Source: Chloroflexota bacterium (GTDB lineage: Bacteria > Chloroflexota > Chloroflexia > Chloroheliales > Chloroheliaceae). Taken from it: a stretch of 64,000 nucleotides of DNA. The position numbers and the translations under genes were made by a program. The stretch's first letter is position 1. Each line of letters opens with the position of its first letter. Positions 20,710 through 64,000 of the stretch are shown here, piece after piece. The notes under the pieces were generated by a model. The model ran no database searches, was not told the origin of the DNA, and saw nothing but the letters and a program-made list of their open reading frames with translations. The stretch covers positions 1 to 64,000 of the forward strand of contig JAQBPB010000005.1 in assembly GCA_028287745.1 (NCBI GenBank), written 5' to 3'.

Positions 20710-21471
20710 TTGACCTGGCAAACAGCGCCTGGCGATACAGTTGTAATGATTGCACCGGTTTCGAATTGGATTAGACCGGTGAGCAAACAATCTACTAACA
20801 CTGGGCGCAATCGCACTATAGAAGGACAATACACCGACTTGTGGGATGAAGCCACCTGCATCGAGCGTGCCCGTCAAGGCGATCAAGCCGCTTTCGCCGA
20901 GATCTATCAACATTTTGAGCGCCCGATATATGGTTTAATTTATCGATTAATGGGTAACTCCGAAGACGCTTTTGATATAACACAGGATGTGTTTGTCAAG
21001 GCTTATAAGGCGTTAGCCAGGACTTCACCTGACCTAAACCTATCCGCCTGGTTGCACCGGATTGCTTCTAATACCTGCCTGGACGTTTTACGCCGCCGTA
21101 AGATAGTCCGTTGGCTTCCCTGGGATCCCACCGAACACGCCAATATAACCCGGGCTTCGGAAAGTGATGAACCTGAACGCCGCTTGATGGGTGAGGAAAC
21201 CCGCCTCCAGGTCCAGGCAGTCCTTAACCAGATGAATGAGCGCTACCGCCTGTGCTTGATCTTAAGAGAGTACCAGGAGCTTTCGTGTGAGGAAATTTCC
21301 GAAATAATGAGCACTTCTCGCCAGGCGGTTAAATCAATGCTTTTCAGGGCGCGGGACCAGTTTAGAGAAATTTACGAAAGACAGCAGGCAGCGCAGTTGG
21401 AGCTTGGTAAGAATTCTTTAAGTGCTCAGCCAGCCGCAAAAACCAAAGAAAAGAAAGGAGGACGGCGTTAA
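20710..21471 (+). CDS. ECF-type sigma factor (RpoE-like)
   Basis: 253 residues. Region 2 is seen as FERPIYGLIYRLMGNSEDA, FDITQDVFVKAYKAL, LSAWLHRIASNTCLDVLRRR; region 4 as YRLCLILREYQELSCEEISE with STSRQAVKSMLFRARDQ. An extra N terminus of about 45 residues precedes region 2. The TTG start at 20710 is supported by GGAGG about 7 nt upstream. The stop TAA shares its last base with the next gene's ATG, so sigma and anti-sigma are translated in a coupled way. It directs a stimulus-responsive regulon; the signal is likely at the cell surface. Confidence 0.9.
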   Translation: MTWQTAPGDTVVMIAPVSNWIRPVSKQSTNTGRNRTIEGQYTDLWDEATCIERARQGDQAAFAEIYQHFERPIYGLIYRLMGNSEDAFDITQDVFVKAYKALARTSPDLNLSAWLHRIASNTCLDVLRRRKIVRWLPWDPTEHANITRASESDEPERRLMGEETRLQVQAVLNQMNERYRLCLILREYQELSCEEISEIMSTSRQAVKSMLFRARDQFREIYERQQAAQLELGKNSLSAQPAAKTKEKKGGRR

Positions 21472-23231
21472 TGGAAAATAGTAATTGCGACCGCTGCCGT
21501 CACTTTCTTTCGGCGATAATGGACGGCGAGGCAACTTTTAACGAGGCCGATTTTGTCCGGCGCCACCTGGCGACCTGTGCCGACTGCCGGGAAGTGCAAC
21601 AGGCTTACCATAATTTGCGGGCCCAGTTGCGCCTGCTCAGTACGCCGCAACCCCCGGCCAGCTTGAAAATGGCTGTAATGAACCGGGTGAACGGCCACTC
21701 GCCCGTCTATGCCCGGCGAAGACCGGCGGCCGGTTTCTACCCCCTGCTGGCTCCCTGGCAAAAGGGGCTGTTTGTGACGGCGGCCCTGGCCGTTGTATTC
21801 GTCGCCGGTTTTGTGGCCTCTATGCTTTTGCGAGGCCAGCCGTTTGAAGTCGAGGGCCAGCCGGTCGCTAACACCACCGAGCAAAAAGTGGTGGTGGCTT
21901 TCAACCGCCCGGTAGACCGCAACTACATCATGGCTAATGCCCCGACCCTGTTCTCAATTAAAGACGCACAGAATAACCCGCTTGAAATCGACTTCGATAA
22001 GATTGTAATCGAGGGAAACACGGTCGAGCTGCCTATCAAACGGGATGGGATGCAGTTACAGGAGAACGAAAAAATAAATGTGGTGGTCAACGCCCAGATT
22101 AAGGATGAAAAAGGGGCTATGGTGACCAACCCGGGTCTCAAGGCGGCGGTGGTTTCCAACCAACCTACTACGGCCCGCAAGACCCAACCGGCCAATAATA
22201 ATGCCCAGGCGGTGATTACTACGCCGGTGCCCGCGACCCATACACCGGTGCCCGCCATCCCGACCACGACCCAACCGGCTGCCACGGCACCGGCCCATTC
22301 GCCGGTGCCGCCTACGGCCACTGTTTCGCCAACCCTGACGATTACGCCTACCAGCACCAGCCACCCGGCCACGCCTCCGGTTTCACCGAGCGTGCAAGTT
22401 ACCGGGACAGTTTCGGTTTCACCGGCGGCGACAGTTACCCAGACCGTATCCGCCACGCCCACCATTCCTTTACCCGTAACGGTGACTCAAATCGCGGTCA
22501 CTACGGCCGCAACAGTAACTACGGTGGTCCCCTCGCCCACTACCGCCCGGCCAACTAATACACCCGTAGCTACGCCTACAATACCGGTCACAATTTCTAC
22601 TACTACGGCCCCATCAACGGTGCCTGTCACCGGTACACCAGTTATCACGGCGACCACGCCTGCCACTCCGGCTCCGACCACGACGCCAGCCTCGGGGACC
22701 CCTGAACCGGTTACCACTTCTCCGGAGGCTACGCCTTCTACCGCGGTTGTGGAGTGTGCGGTGCCGGTGGCGGCGACCTTTAAGAGTGCTTATCCCAACG
22801 CAGCCTCACGGGTGGGCTGCCCGACCGCATCCCAGAACCAGGCCGCCTTTACCTACCAGGTCTTCCAAAAAGGCAGCATGCTCTACAACCAGCAAACCGG
22901 CCGGATTTACGTTTTCTACAACTTTGGCGGTTGGGCTAACTACCAGGCCAGCGGCCCGGTGGCCCAGTCCACTCCGGCCACGACACCCGGTACGGTTACA
23001 CCTGATCCTTCCGGTTGCAGCACCACTCCCAGGGGCTCCTTCGGGACACTCTGGGACACTAACCAGGCGGTCCAATCCGCCCTGGGCTGTCCGCAGGGCC
23101 AGGACATCAGCACTTCGGCCGGTGTTGTCCAGAACTTTAGCCGGGGTGTAATGATCTACAATCCGCTGGCAAGCCTGCCGGTATCAGTGGTCTATGCTGA
23201 CGGCGGTTACCAGGCTTTCTCAAACAAATAA
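21471..23231 (+). CDS. Membrane anti-sigma factor with Ig-like and LGFP-type surface domain
   Basis: 586 residues. Residues 1-50 are a zinc-finger anti-sigma domain (CDRCRHFLSAIMDGE, then HLATCADC, the H-x3-C-x2-C ligands). One membrane helix lies at about 98-122. Outside come an Ig-like segment starting KVVVAFNRPVDRN, a Thr/Pro/Val-rich mucin-like stalk of about 190 residues, and a C-terminal region with two LGFP-like repeats (SRVGCPTASQNQAA...QKGSMLYNQQTGRIYVF and ALGCPQGQD...SRGVMIYN). The inner domain should hold the cognate ECF sigma factor, while the outer part looks able to sense or bind the wall. A surface-stress sensor is the most likely role. Confidence 0.85.
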   Translation: MENSNCDRCRHFLSAIMDGEATFNEADFVRRHLATCADCREVQQAYHNLRAQLRLLSTPQPPASLKMAVMNRVNGHSPVYARRRPAAGFYPLLAPWQKGLFVTAALAVVFVAGFVASMLLRGQPFEVEGQPVANTTEQKVVVAFNRPVDRNYIMANAPTLFSIKDAQNNPLEIDFDKIVIEGNTVELPIKRDGMQLQENEKINVVVNAQIKDEKGAMVTNPGLKAAVVSNQPTTARKTQPANNNAQAVITTPVPATHTPVPAIPTTTQPAATAPAHSPVPPTATVSPTLTITPTSTSHPATPPVSPSVQVTGTVSVSPAATVTQTVSATPTIPLPVTVTQIAVTTAATVTTVVPSPTTARPTNTPVATPTIPVTISTTTAPSTVPVTGTPVITATTPATPAPTTTPASGTPEPVTTSPEATPSTAVVECAVPVAATFKSAYPNAASRVGCPTASQNQAAFTYQVFQKGSMLYNQQTGRIYVFYNFGGWANYQASGPVAQSTPATTPGTVTPDPSGCSTTPRGSFGTLWDTNQAVQSALGCPQGQDISTSAGVVQNFSRGVMIYNPLASLPVSVVYADGGYQAFSNK

Positions 23232-23237
23232 ATTAAA

Positions 23238-23274
23238 AGTGGGTTGAGCCACCTTTAAGGTGGCTCAACCCACT
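23238..23274 (+). terminator. Terminator-like hairpin after the anti-sigma gene
   Basis: 16-bp perfect stem, AGTGGGTTGAGCCACC with its complement around TTTAA. The T tract is weak (CCTCTT), but the AT-rich upstream side would also serve the convergent transporter gene. Confidence 0.7.
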
Positions 23275-23363
23275 CCTCTTCAGACTTTTTATTTTCTTTA
23301 ACATTACTTTCAAAAATCAGTCCGGCACCTGCAACAGGTACGCCAGCGGTTTTTTGCTGGCCG

Positions 23364-24299
23364 CTAAATTAAAAGAGTCAGGATCAGGGTCAGCGAAAGC
23401 GCGCTTAGCAGGGTGCTGATAAAGACCACCCCCGCCGTGAATTTGGAGTCGGCGCCAAACTCGATTGAAAGCAATACGACCGTTACGGCAGTCGGCATAG
23501 CCATTGCCACAATCGGGATTTTGGCTGAAAGACCGTTCAGGCCAAAGACCGGGGCCAGCAACCAGACTGCCATGACCGCCAGGGCCGGTGAAAGGATCAG
23601 CCGGTACACTACCGCCAGGCCAATGCGCGGCATAGCGACCAGGTCGGGCCGGGTTTCGGCCAGTTGTAAGCCCAGCGAAAGCAGGATAATCGGCAGCGCA
23701 GCTTCCCCCAAGAGCGAGATACTTTTGTCCACCGGGTCCGGCACCCGCAAATTTGTCAACAGGATAAACCCGGCCGCTGTTACGGCATAGGTCAGGGGCA
23801 TCCGGAAGACTTTACGTACCCCTTGCTGCCAGGTCATCTGGCCCCGGGTCGCCAGCCAGACCGCCAGGGTATTAAACAGGACTTGCTGGGTTACAAAACA
23901 TATAATCGCCATGTCGCGGCTTTCCCGGCCAAAGGCCAGGTCCATCAGCGGCACCCCATAATTTCCGGCGTTGGTAAAAAGAATTGTCAAAAGAAACGAA
24001 CTGCTCTGGGGGGCCGTGAAAGCCAGCAACCGCCCGGTTAGCATGCCGATAACTAACAGGATGGTTGTCACAAGTAAAATTACCGCGACCGCCCCAAAGG
24101 CCACGCCCCCGGTTAGCTGGCTGTGGGTCAGGGACGAGAAGGCCAGGCAGGGACTTAGAATATACAAACCTAGCCGGGCGATAGTTGCAATGTTCAGGCG
24201 CAGGATGCGTTGCCCAAAATAGCCTGCCCCGATTACAATAAAAATTGGTAGGACCGTATTTACAAAGACCGAAAAAACCGTTGAAATCGCGTTGCTCAG
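23364..24299 (-). CDS. AEC-family (auxin efflux carrier-like) transporter, non-standard start
   Basis: About 311 residues with some ten membrane helices and the AEC pattern: N-terminal NTVLPIFIVIGAGYFGQRIL, the TNAGNYGVPLMDLAFG crossover region, and LPIILLSLGLQLAE. The first ATG/GTG/TTG in frame is TTG 24167, which would remove the first helix. The frame stays open well upstream and encodes exactly the missing N terminus, but contains no ATG, GTG or TTG. CTG at 24297-24299 has AGAAAGG 9 nt upstream and gives the family's usual length, so I place the start there. Exports small organic anions; substrate unknown. A start-codon mutation is the alternative. Confidence 0.75.
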   Translation of the reverse strand: MSNAISTVFSVFVNTVLPIFIVIGAGYFGQRILRLNIATIARLGLYILSPCLAFSSLTHSQLTGGVAFGAVAVILLVTTILLVIGMLTGRLLAFTAPQSSSFLLTILFTNAGNYGVPLMDLAFGRESRDMAIICFVTQQVLFNTLAVWLATRGQMTWQQGVRKVFRMPLTYAVTAAGFILLTNLRVPDPVDKSISLLGEAALPIILLSLGLQLAETRPDLVAMPRIGLAVVYRLILSPALAVMAVWLLAPVFGLNGLSAKIPIVAMAMPTAVTVVLLSIEFGADSKFTAGVVFISTLLSALSLTLILTLLI

Positions 24300-24590
24300 G
24301 ACTGAAAGCCTTTCTTTAAGCCGGTAGGCGGTGGTCAGTTGCCAGTAGTCAGAAGCCGGTGAAATTAGTAAGAAGCAGAAATTACACTTATTTTCAGGTT
24401 ATCGCAACGTGTGCATTATTGTCCCAAAGTCAGTCCACATCCGCCTTTAGTATGGCTCTGCCACATTTTCTAAATTTCTGGGTATAACTTTAACAGAAAA
24501 CCGCCTACTTTTGAATTCAGATTGCTTTGCAAGAATTAACCATTTTCTGGCTACCGTCCCCTGCCCGCTGCCTTCTCTCCCCACTGACTA
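24300..24590. other. Intergenic region with TAGTCAG-type repeat copies
   Basis: No gene. One copy of the dispersed repeat (CAGTAGTCAGAAG, 24343-24355) and, in inverse orientation, CCCCACTGACTACTGACTAC (24579-24598). The second overlaps the -35 of the SDR promoter. Confidence 0.55.
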
Positions 24591-24664: not shown

Positions 24665-25432
24665 ATGGAGTTGAAGGACAAAGCGGTTCTGGTTTCAGGT
24701 GGTGCCTCAGGACTTGGCGGGGCATGTGTAAGGCTATTGAGTGAAGCGGGGGCCCGGGTAATTATTGCCGACCTGAACCAGGCCCAGGGCGAAGAACTGG
24801 CCGGGGAATTGGGCGACCGCGTTCATTTCGTCAAGACCAATGTAACCGATGAAGAGTCGGTAAAAGCGGCGGTCCAGGCCGCAGTTGACCGCTTTGGCGG
24901 CTTGCAAGTCGCTATAAATTGCGCCGGGGTTGCCGTGGCCGAGAAAGTTCTGGGCAAGGATGGCCCGCTGCCCCTTGCTAACTTCAGCAAAGTCATTCAA
25001 GTTAATCTCATTGGCACTTTTAACGTCATCCGGTTGGCTTCCGCCGCTATGGCTAACAACCAGCCCAATGCCGGGGGCGAGCGCGGCGTAATTATTAATA
25101 CCGCTTCGGTCGCGGCCTTTGACGGGCAAATCGGCCAGGCGGCTTACTCGGCATCCAAAGGTGGGGTGGTCGGAATGACCCTGCCAATAGCCCGCGAACT
25201 GGCCCGTTACGGCATCCGGGTAATGACTATCGCCCCGGGTATTTTTGATACGCCGATGCTGGCCGGACTACCGGAAGCTGCCCGGCAATCGCTGGGACAA
25301 CAGGTGCCGTTCCCTTCGCGCCTGGGCCAACCCCGCGAATACGCCGCCCTTGCCAGACACATTATTGAAAATGAAATGTTAAACGGCGAAGTCATCCGGC
25401 TAGATGGCGCGATTCGGATGGCTCCGAAATAA
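24665..25432 (+). CDS. Short-chain dehydrogenase, 3-hydroxyacyl-CoA dehydrogenase type-2-like
   Basis: 255 residues, one Rossmann domain. Cofactor loop [15 protein letters not shown], then IIADLN with Asp after the second strand (NAD preference), [10 protein letters not shown], and the catalytic Ser ([11 protein letters not shown]) with [10 protein letters not shown] (Tyr and Lys). The insertion [20 protein letters not shown] and the ending [15 protein letters not shown] closely follow the HSD17B10 / type II 3-hydroxyacyl-CoA dehydrogenase subgroup, so beta-oxidation of short or branched acyl-CoA is likely. An enoyl-CoA hydratase two genes downstream agrees with this. Confidence 0.87.
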
Positions 25433-25473: not shown

Positions 25474-26256
25474 TTGCGTATACTTTTAACAAATGACGAT
25501 GGTATTGACGGTCCGGGCCTTCAAGCCCTTTATGAGGCGGTGGCAGACCTACCGGAGGTAGAGGTAACGGTTATTGCCCCCGACCGGAATTGGAGCATTA
25601 GCGGCCATAACAAGACCATGGACCGGCCTTTGCGCGTTTCCGAAATCAAATGGTACAACGGCCTGGCGGCTTTTTCGACCGACGGCACGCCCGCCGACTG
25701 CGTCAGCCTGGCCGGACTGGGCCTGATGCCGGACAAGCCGGACCTGGTGTTAAGCGGGATCAATACCGGCCCAAACCTGGGCGATGATGTGACCTATAGC
25801 GGGACCGTGGCGGCGGCTATGGAAGCCCATATTGCCGGTATTCCAGCCCTGGCTTTTTCCTGCGACGCCTATGTGGACCATAACTTTGACGCGGCGGGCC
25901 GCTTTGCCCGGCGAATGGTGACTCTTTTCCAGCGAAACTTGAAAGGTGAGGAAGGCGGGCTGGTCCTGACCTCGGATTTACTGCTTAATATCAATGTGCC
26001 CAGCCTTAATTTCGATGAAGTGGCCGGGATTGAAATCACCCGGCAGGGCCACCGCATTTATCGCGACGAACTGTTCCGGCGCGAAGACCCGCGCGGCCGT
26101 CCTTACTACTGGATTGGCGGCGAACGGCCCGACGGCCACCTGATTGACGGGACCGATATTGCCGCTGTCGCTGCCCGGAAGATTAGTATTACCCCCATGA
26201 TGCTGGACCTGACCAACTACCTTTTGCTGGAAAAGCTAAAGGGCTGGCAGTTTTAA
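25474..26256 (+). CDS. surE: 5'/3'-nucleotidase SurE
   Basis: 260 residues. LLTNDDGIDGPGLQAL (metal-binding DD), VIAPDRNWSISGHNKT, DGTPADCV, LSGINTGPNLGDDVTYSGTV and GIPALAFS are the full SurE signature set. It dephosphorylates nucleoside monophosphates and short polyphosphates using a divalent metal, in the cytoplasm. The TTG start is supported by AAAGGAG 11 nt upstream and by homology beginning at this residue. It lies in a tight co-directional set with the SDR and ECH genes (gaps about 40 bp). Confidence 0.94.
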   Translation: MRILLTNDDGIDGPGLQALYEAVADLPEVEVTVIAPDRNWSISGHNKTMDRPLRVSEIKWYNGLAAFSTDGTPADCVSLAGLGLMPDKPDLVLSGINTGPNLGDDVTYSGTVAAAMEAHIAGIPALAFSCDAYVDHNFDAAGRFARRMVTLFQRNLKGEEGGLVLTSDLLLNINVPSLNFDEVAGIEITRQGHRIYRDELFRREDPRGRPYYWIGGERPDGHLIDGTDIAAVAARKISITPMMLDLTNYLLLEKLKGWQF

Positions 26257-29330: not shown

Positions 29331-29510
29331 CAGGAAACTTTTAAGGTAGCCGTTGCGTTATATCTTATCAGGGCGGCTTAAACACCCGGGGTTTCCCGAC
29401 TATGCCTTTCGCCCTCCAAACGGGAACCACCATCTAAACGATAATAGGGCAGGCTACGAACGTTAGTAAATCTAGCAAGCCTTTACCTGAGAAGGGATAG
29501 AATTTACAGA

Positions 29511-30251
29511 ATGCCTCAACCGGCATACAAACGGGTATTGCTCAAATTGAGCGGCGAAGCCTTGATGGGCCAGGAAAAATTTGGGATTGATCCCAAAATT
29601 GCCCAGGTAATCGCTAATAAGATCAAAGCAATTGTTGAATTAAAAGTAGAAGTAGCTATAGTTGTAGGTGGTGGTAACATCTGGCGGGGGTTTAAGGCCA
29701 GTTCCCAGGGTATGGAACGGTCGGCGGCGGATTATATGGGTATGCTGGCAACGGTCCTGAACGGGCTGGCTTTGCAGGATTCGCTGGAACATAGCGGCGT
29801 TTTTACCCGGGTTATGACGGCCATCGAAATGCACCAGGTCGCTGAACCGTATATCCGGCGGCGGGCCATCCGACACCTGGAAAAAGGCCGGGTCATTATC
29901 CTGGCCGGTGGCGCCGGGTTGCCATATTTCACGACCGATACCACCGCCGCGCTGCGTTCGATGGAAATTAATGCCGATGTTATCCTGATGGAAAAGAACC
30001 AGGTCAACGGTGTGTATGACTCGGACCCTCGCGGTAACCCGGAGGCCCGGAAGTTTGATCAATTAACTTTCCGCGAAGCGCTCAACCTCAACCTGCGGGT
30101 GATGGATAGCACCGCCCTGGCGCTGTGTATGGAAAATAATATGCCCTTAATCGTCTTTGATATGATGAAGGACGATAACCTGCTTAAAGCGGTGATGGGC
30201 GAGCGCGTTGGGACCCTGATTAAAAACGAATTTACAACGATTGAGAATTAA
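29511..30251 (+). CDS. pyrH: Uridylate kinase (UMP kinase)
   Basis: 246 residues, amino-acid-kinase fold. [15 protein letters not shown] (phosphate loop), [47 protein letters not shown] and [15 protein letters not shown] are the bacterial PyrH signatures. It makes UDP from UMP and ATP and is usually allosterically inhibited by UTP. AGAAGGGATAG precedes the ATG. It stands between tsf and frr in the conserved cluster. Confidence 0.95.
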
Positions 30252-60993: not shown

Positions 60994-61663
60994 ATGACTC
61001 CACCCCCACCCGGAGTTTTATGGAAGGTTAAACTTTCCCGGTACCTGCTATGGGTTTGTTTTTTAATCCTGGCGCTCTTTACCAGCTTTGTGTTGTTTAG
61101 CGATACTCGCCTCAAACAACTCCAGGGGTTGGCAATAGATAACCGGGATATTTTTATATTACCGATAGTGGCTACGCGTGTATTGCCAAATATGATAGCC
61201 AGCGCAAAGCCCTATTAAGCTGGGGTGGTAAGGGCAGCGGGGACGGGCAATTCGCGGAACGCCTGGGCCTGGGCGAGCTGGCAATCAGCCCGGAAAACGA
61301 GCTTTACGTCCTGGATAGAGGAAACTACCGGGTTCAAAAGTTTGACCTGGACGGCAAATTTTTAAGCGGCTGGGGCAGCCAGGGCACCGGGCCAGGCGAC
61401 TTTGTAACGCCGGAAAAGATTGCGGTTGCAGGCCGGGGCCAGGTCTATATCTGGAACAGGGCGCTTAAATACTTTGATGCAATGGGAAATTACTAGAGGT
61501 TTTTGATAGCAATGGCCGTACTTTACGCCAGTTCTCCGTTGGCTGGCCGAAGTGGCTACAGAATAACTCATACTATTTCTTGCTAGCTTCTATCATTTTG
61601 CAGCTTATGCAGGTAATTACCGAAATCATAGCCAGGAAAACCTTCTCACCTGGCCGGGGATAG
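60994..61663 (+). pseudogene. NHL-repeat membrane protein broken by two frameshifts
   Basis: Reading across three frames gives one sensible protein of about 220 residues: a membrane helix (YLLWVCFLILALFTSFVLF), NHL beta-propeller repeats (YITDSGYACIAKYD; SWGGKGSGDGQF; ELYVLDRGNYRVQKFD; SGWGSQGTGPGDF), and a C-terminal helix (YYFLLASIILQLMQVI) ending at TAG 61661-61663. The first shift is one missing T at the T run 61151-61155, the second one missing base near 61492. NHL propellers bind peptides or sugars outside the cell. It is either a true pseudogene or carries homopolymer errors. Confidence 0.7.
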
Positions 61664-62875: not shown

Positions 62876-64000
62876 TTGAATGCTTATAACCAGACAAACG
62901 AATTACCGGCTGACTCACTGAGTGGCATCCGGCGCTACGCGGAGGTTGCCCGGCGCTTGCTGAGGACCAGCGCCCGGGTCCAGGCCGGGGAACGCGTAAC
63001 CATCCTGGGCCGGGCCGACAGCCTGGATTTTTGCGAAGCCCTGGAACTGGAATGCCGCCGGGTGGGCGCTTTGCCCTTTGTGGTAGTCGGGAGCGACGCC
63101 GCCCTGCTGGTGGCCCTGACCGACGAATCAATACCGGAGGCCGCCCTGGCCCAGCCCAGCCCGCAATTGCTGGCGGCCCTGGAAGCTTCCGACCTGGTTA
63201 TCACGACTTTTTTTGAAAGGGCCGAACCGGGCCGCTTTAGCCGGTTATCTCAGGCCCGCCAGCGTGCCCTTAAGCAAAGCGAAGAAGCGCCCAGCAATAT
63301 TATCTATGATGGCAAGCGGCGCTGGATTGGCACCGAAGTACCGACGCCCGGCCAGGCCCTGGCGCTTGGCCTTGATTGGCCTTCTTTACAGGCGATGTTC
63401 TGGCAGGCCATGCAGGTGGACTATGTTGCCTTAGAAGACCAGGCCCGGCGGCTGGCCGACCGGTTGGCCGGGGCGGGCCGTTTGCGCCTGCGCGATGCCG
63501 GGGGCAAGACCGACCTCTGGCTGCCCCAGGCGGTGGGCGGCCGCCCCCTGGAACGCGATGACGGGATAATTTCGGCTGAGGATATTGCTGCGGGCGCAGT
63601 CTACCTGAATTTGCCCTCCGGCGAGGTTTGTTTTGCCCCACCTGAACAAAGCGCCCAGGGGAAGGCTTATATCGAGGTGGCCTACTGGCAGGGCCAGCCT
63701 ATCCGAGGCCTGGAACTGGAATTCGACTGTGGCGTGGTCAGGCCGCTGCGGGCTGAAAGCGGTTTTGAGCTTTTCTGTGAGGTGGTCCGGGACTCCGGCG
63801 GCGACTCGATGCGGCTGGGCGAGTTTGGCATTGGCCTCAACCCGGCTGTAACAAAAGTGACCGGCCTGACCCTGCTGGATGAAAAGATGATCGGCACCTG
63901 TCACCTGGCCCTGGGCGAAAACCGGGCGCTGGGCGGCCTGAACGATAGTGCCCTGCACTGGGATTTAGTGGTCCAGGCAGCTATTTTAGAGGTTGACGGC
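62876..64000 (+). CDS. M29-type aminopeptidase (partial, runs off the window)
   Basis: About 375 residues without a stop before the edge. ALEASDLVITTFFERAEP, FWQAMQVDYVALEDQARRLA, DDGIISAEDIAAGAVYLNLP, SGEVCFAP (first metal Glu), LGEFGIGLNP (second Glu), LDEKMIGTCHLALGENRALG (metal Glu/His) and LNDSALHWDLV (His, Asp) are the thermophilic aminopeptidase (AmpS/PepS, M29) metal-site motifs. It cleaves N-terminal residues using a two-metal centre. TTG 62876 is the likely start, with only a weak ribosome site. It lies 50 bp after the oxidoreductase on the same strand. Confidence 0.82.
   Translation, partial: MNAYNQTNELPADSLSGIRRYAEVARRLLRTSARVQAGERVTILGRADSLDFCEALELECRRVGALPFVVVGSDAALLVALTDESIPEAALAQPSPQLLAALEASDLVITTFFERAEPGRFSRLSQARQRALKQSEEAPSNIIYDGKRRWIGTEVPTPGQALALGLDWPSLQAMFWQAMQVDYVALEDQARRLADRLAGAGRLRLRDAGGKTDLWLPQAVGGRPLERDDGIISAEDIAAGAVYLNLPSGEVCFAPPEQSAQGKAYIEVAYWQGQPIRGLELEFDCGVVRPLRAESGFELFCEVVRDSGGDSMRLGEFGIGLNPAVTKVTGLTLLDEKMIGTCHLALGENRALGGLNDSALHWDLVVQAAILEVDG

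Follow-up and report, generated by a model that had tools for sequence, protein, structure and literature searches.

A CTG codon as the probable genus-conserved start of an AEC-family transporter gene in Chloroflexota

Introduction

Initiation at CUG and initiation at starts under IF3 control are both already known in kind. In Streptomyces, the excerpted report on sigR (PMC5472188) describes a GTC start that IF3 represses and that 32 of 34 species share, and the same excerpts give an ATC start for Streptomyces infC, the codon that is also found at infC in the genomes considered here. For CUG itself, the excerpted text of PMC5622118 counts recent switches to this codon at 2 of 61,358 ancestral AUG starts, 1 of 5,080 GUG starts and 1 of 2,468 UUG starts, and with two switches among that many ancestral AUG starts, CUG starts must be considered rare. 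Excerpts of a study in E. coli (PMC11497404) report that CUG supports less stable initiation complexes than AUG, GUG or UUG do, and that wild-type and variant initiator tRNA are both inefficient on this codon.

Here we consider a gene of the AEC family whose start is most likely a CTG shared by three species of one genus. As far as sigR is described in the excerpted report, in both genes a strong, conserved Shine-Dalgarno sequence precedes a non-canonical start that is found genus-wide and missed by standard start prediction; they differ in the codon and in the type of gene, and whereas initiation and IF3 repression were measured for sigR, the AEC start is proposed from sequence comparison. 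The infC gene, with its ATT or ATC start, offers another likeness, a non-canonical start conserved by descent and present as ATC in the same three genomes, but the infC start serves autoregulation, whereas for a transporter gene no comparable loop is evident. The excerpted cases of PMC5622118 share the use of CUG as a bacterial start codon; there, however, CUG is a recent switch, while the AEC CTG is common to three species. The open-licence literature searched yielded no description of this particular gene, of an AEC gene with a conserved CTG start, or of a conserved CUG start on a Chloroflexota transporter.

Results

The AEC gene, its frame and its product

The window is the whole stretch of Chloroflexota DNA that was analysed, 64,000 nucleotides in length. 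Its ORF analysis places an AEC-family gene on the minus strand, within an open frame of 344 codons that spans 24398 to 23364. The preliminary description had reported a gene with no ATG, GTG or TTG at its 5' end, and a CTG with AGAAAGG 9 nt before it as the one available start. Both elements were located on the minus strand, at 24299-24297 and 24309-24315, and the first standard start codon of the frame is indeed a TTG at residue 45 counted from the CTG (TTG45), from which a protein of 267 residues would be made. The features considered below are:

21471-23231, zinc-finger anti-sigma-like gene, convergent neighbour of the AEC gene
23235-23277, minus strand, 20-pair terminator hairpin downstream of the AEC gene, between the convergent genes
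23364-24299, minus strand, AEC-family (PF03547) transporter gene, 311 codons from the proposed CTG (24299-24297) to TAG (23366-23364)
24165-24167, minus strand, TTG at residue 45 counted from the CTG, first standard start codon, rejected as start
24168-24299, minus strand, codons 1-44, coding-like in dN/dS and holding the first helix and the beginning of the second in the structure model, lost with a TTG45 start
24297-24299, minus strand, CTG, proposed start codon of the AEC gene, identical in codon and position in 54-19 and isolate 14
24309-24315, minus strand, AGAAAGG, Shine-Dalgarno-like motif ending 9 nt ahead of the CTG
24399-24401, minus strand, in-frame TAA closing the AEC frame upstream, as seen in the sequence
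24665-25432, short-chain dehydrogenase gene, divergent neighbour of the AEC gene

The product is an AEC (auxin efflux carrier/PIN-type) membrane transporter of the ordinary kind, and the search of its own 6.34-Mb genome gave no further PF03547 gene. The PF03547 (Mem_trans) profile matches residues 45-339 of the open frame over profile positions 2-342 of 343 (E 5.6e-23), with 81.5 bits against a Pfam gathering cut-off of 25.7; the score with TIGR00946, the auxin efflux carrier subfamily, is 67.3 bits against the NCBI curated threshold of 246.05, so the protein is not filed in that subfamily. Since the PF03547 match begins 12 residues past the CTG, the family domain includes the region ahead of TTG45. 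A structure model built from seven sequences (pLDDT 76.5, pTM 0.78) has helices at residues 2-33 and 37-58 and can be superimposed on PIN8 (PDB 7qp9) with Z 32.1 and rmsd 2.8 over 304 aligned residues, model 2-311 to chain 0-366, the N-terminal helix lying on the first residues of PIN8. Read from the CTG, the protein is thus predicted to have the full PIN-type fold including the first helix, and it resembles the described AEC/PIN proteins (PF03547, TIGR00946, PIN8) in family domain and in full-length fold. The earlier suggestion that the frame upstream of TTG45 encodes the first helix of the family is borne out by the domain match from residue 12 and by the modelled helix 2-33. The promoter scan gave no good site for the AEC gene, with one weak minus-strand match at 24639-24612 (9/12).

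Conservation at the proposed start in three species

The ortholog search covered 61 genomes, the own genome and 60 relatives, 27 of which gave a match. The same-genus orthologs, in Chloroflexi bacterium 54-19 (G001; MKTJ01000035.1) and Chloroflexi bacterium isolate 14 (G002; CADDZM010000034.1), have 81% identity across all 311 residues and lie in a syntenic setting. An alignment of the orthologous start regions, the check that the preliminary description had proposed, places CTG at the same codon in all three species and (A/C)GAAAGG 8 nt upstream of it in both 54-19 and isolate 14; the 1-nt difference in length is confined to the spacer, the window having one more base between motif and CTG. 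For the three species pairs, the DNA of the block 80 to 17 nt upstream of the CTG is identical at 18/52, 26/56 and 28/57 positions, that of the motif at 6/7, 7/7 and 6/7, that of the spacer between motif and CTG at 4/8 for every pair, and that of codons 1-15 at 36/45, 36/45 and 39/45. In this three-species comparison, conservation goes up at the CTG.

Substitution in the 43 codons that follow the CTG is of the coding type in all three pairs. Between the window and 54-19, dN and dS are 0.141 and 1.03 for codons 2-44 and 0.139 and 0.99 for the rest of the gene; between 54-19 and isolate 14 they are 0.061 and 0.64, with 0.039 and 0.67 for the rest; and between the window and isolate 14, dN is 0.103 and pS 0.753, a value beyond correction, with 0.140 and 0.88 for the rest. 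Because of this pattern we consider that the stretch from the CTG to TTG45 evolves as translated sequence.

Retention of the CTG in three species is not significant by itself. Across the gene, 63 of 148 fourfold sites are unchanged in all three species, which makes neutral retention of the base not unlikely, and of the 27 CTG codons inside the window gene, 9 are CTG in all three; on these sequence comparisons, selective retention of the codon is not established. On the home contig, counting both strands, 50 of 4240 CTG triplets (1.2%) have a Shine-Dalgarno match of at least 6 nt at a suitable spacing (50/4240, 51/3694 and 14/1151 by the three contigs), so that the presence of such a match at this CTG in all three orthologs is not attributable to chance.

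The 16S rRNA gene gave no match in the window's genome, 54-19, isolate 14 or the further genome G003, and was found only in G004, a genome of the same family, where the 3' end reads CACCTCCTTTCT in three copies. AGAAAGG is perfectly complementary to the last seven bases, CCTTTCT, of this end, the exact mature 3' end being assumed by us from other bacteria. With the full complement AGAAAGGAGG as reference, the aligned spacing to the AEC CTG is 6, 5 and 5 nt, and an aligned spacing of 5-6 nt is the usual range. RNA folding around the start, in three 86-nt stretches, was no better than in shuffles (z 0.96, 0.03 and 0.95), and we do not propose a conserved hairpin regulator because of these unremarkable scores.

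A start further upstream was set aside. In 54-19 it is excluded by an in-frame stop seven codons before the CTG, and in the 150 nt upstream, whether there or in the window, no ATG, GTG or TTG of any frame reads into the gene; isolate 14 has an in-frame GTG (-93) and ATG (-87), and the frame is open there only.

Survey of starts and the infC control

How isolated the AEC start is was judged from a survey of two syntenic regions, the window contig and the infC contig, with 60 genes that have an ortholog in 54-19 and/or isolate 14. Six of the 60 were flagged because no canonical codon lay close to their aligned 5' end, under a lenient criterion that does not by itself prove the actual start codon of the 54 unflagged genes. 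Among the flagged genes, 21411 and 30862 each contain a conserved ATG further in, and C131:9596-10154 has one further in that is seen in the window species only. The AEC gene and infC are the only full-length frames without a canonical start among those surveyed, and broad use of CTG starts in the genus was not seen in the 60 genes. In the window's genome, infC lies at G000:C131:17484-18192; in none of the three same-genus genomes does it have an ATG, GTG or TTG start, and all of them have a conserved ATC after GAAAGGAG. Recovery of this ATC serves as a positive control, indicating that the method detects true non-canonical starts, and the usual IF3 autoregulation probably operates in this lineage.

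A short open frame with an NHL repeat at 61143-61493 was also among the six flagged for the lack of a canonical codon at this end; it resembles a gene fragment, since the matching 54-19 frame extends further upstream.

Discussion

We propose that the CTG at 24299 is, very probably, the real start of the AEC gene and is conserved as such in the genus. Conservation of CTG and motif in both orthologs and the coding-like codons 2-44 together support the genuine CTG start envisaged in the preliminary description, and the argument is one of comparison among three species. In such a scheme the 3' tail of the 16S rRNA would pair with AGAAAGG and place the CTG in the ribosomal P site, where the initiator tRNA would be used despite a C-U mismatch at the first base. 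The product would be the full-length AEC protein of 311 residues, with methionine expected at residue 1.

The main rival is a start at another non-canonical codon nearby, GTT (codon 8) or ACG (codon 7), or, in the window, ATT (codon 5). Unlike the genus, its relatives in the class offer canonical starts, which mostly lie 4-8 codons past the CTG position: of 31 AEC relatives, 30 have a canonical codon within codons 3-11 counted from that position, most often at codon 8, and the remaining one is truncated by the end of its contig. Where these relatives have ATG or GTG, all three genus members keep ACG GTT, which counts in favour of this rival. However, no Shine-Dalgarno-like motif lies at the usual distance from these codons, the sole one being ~30 nt from GTT, and conservation as coding sequence already covers codons 2-7; codon 5 is ATT, CTT and CTC across the three species and hence not shared. 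We regard a start at any of these codons as improbable, and with the CTG as the start, the AEC protein of the genus would begin a few residues ahead of those of its relatives.

The other readings deserve less credence. TTG45 (24167) is the earliest standard start codon of the frame and would be chosen by a standard gene caller, yet the 267-residue protein would begin inside the Pfam domain and lack the first modelled helix (2-33) together with part of the second, and codons 2-44 are under purifying selection; moreover, the codon is not a shared NTG, 54-19 having CTC in its place, and it sits in model helix 2. A start at residue 45, the alternative named in the preliminary description, is accordingly disfavoured, and we consider it very improbable. 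Loss of the start codon in the common ancestor, leaving a relic that is no longer translated, would agree with the missing canonical start; set against this, in each of the three pairs dN is well below dS along the entire gene, the frames are open in three species and the motif ahead of the CTG is kept, so that a relic seems to us more improbable still. Least probable of all is a sequencing or assembly error that conceals an ATG or GTG, for while all three genomes are draft assemblies, the same CTG stands in three separate ones, which refutes it.

If the CTG is the start, it is perhaps a weak and IF3-sensitive one, giving low AEC expression that may rise when IF3 is limiting. By analogy with Streptomyces sigR, the gene is probably weakly expressed and sensitive to IF3. 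A further step, that selection holds the CTG in place as a built-in weak, IF3-sensitive start limiting the only AEC transporter found in the genome, is one that we consider doubtful; were it true, the gene would parallel the sigR GTC switch with a CUG conserved across the genus, in a phylum for which the open-licence searches brought up no such case.

Irrespective of such details, standard gene callers accept ATG, GTG and TTG only, and would annotate this gene with 44 residues and the first helix missing. With its support from three species, the CTG start offers a clean case for asking how frequently bacteria use CUG, and it bears on whether weak starts are kept to limit membrane-protein synthesis through IF3, with infC and its ATC start in the same genomes as a built-in comparison.

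Some other starts in the window may be put on record. At 29486-29511, CCTGAGAAGGGA upstream of pyrH (ATG at 29511) is conserved in the three species, and the GGG of CCTGAGAAGGGA ends 14 nt ahead of the ATG, a long Shine-Dalgarno spacer. The M29 peptidase gene at 62879-63997 has only TTG or later codons in the window, with no clear Shine-Dalgarno sequence, while an ATG is available in 54-19. The gene at 25474, which we take to be surE-like, starts with TTG after AAAGGAG, and TTG is found there in all three species.
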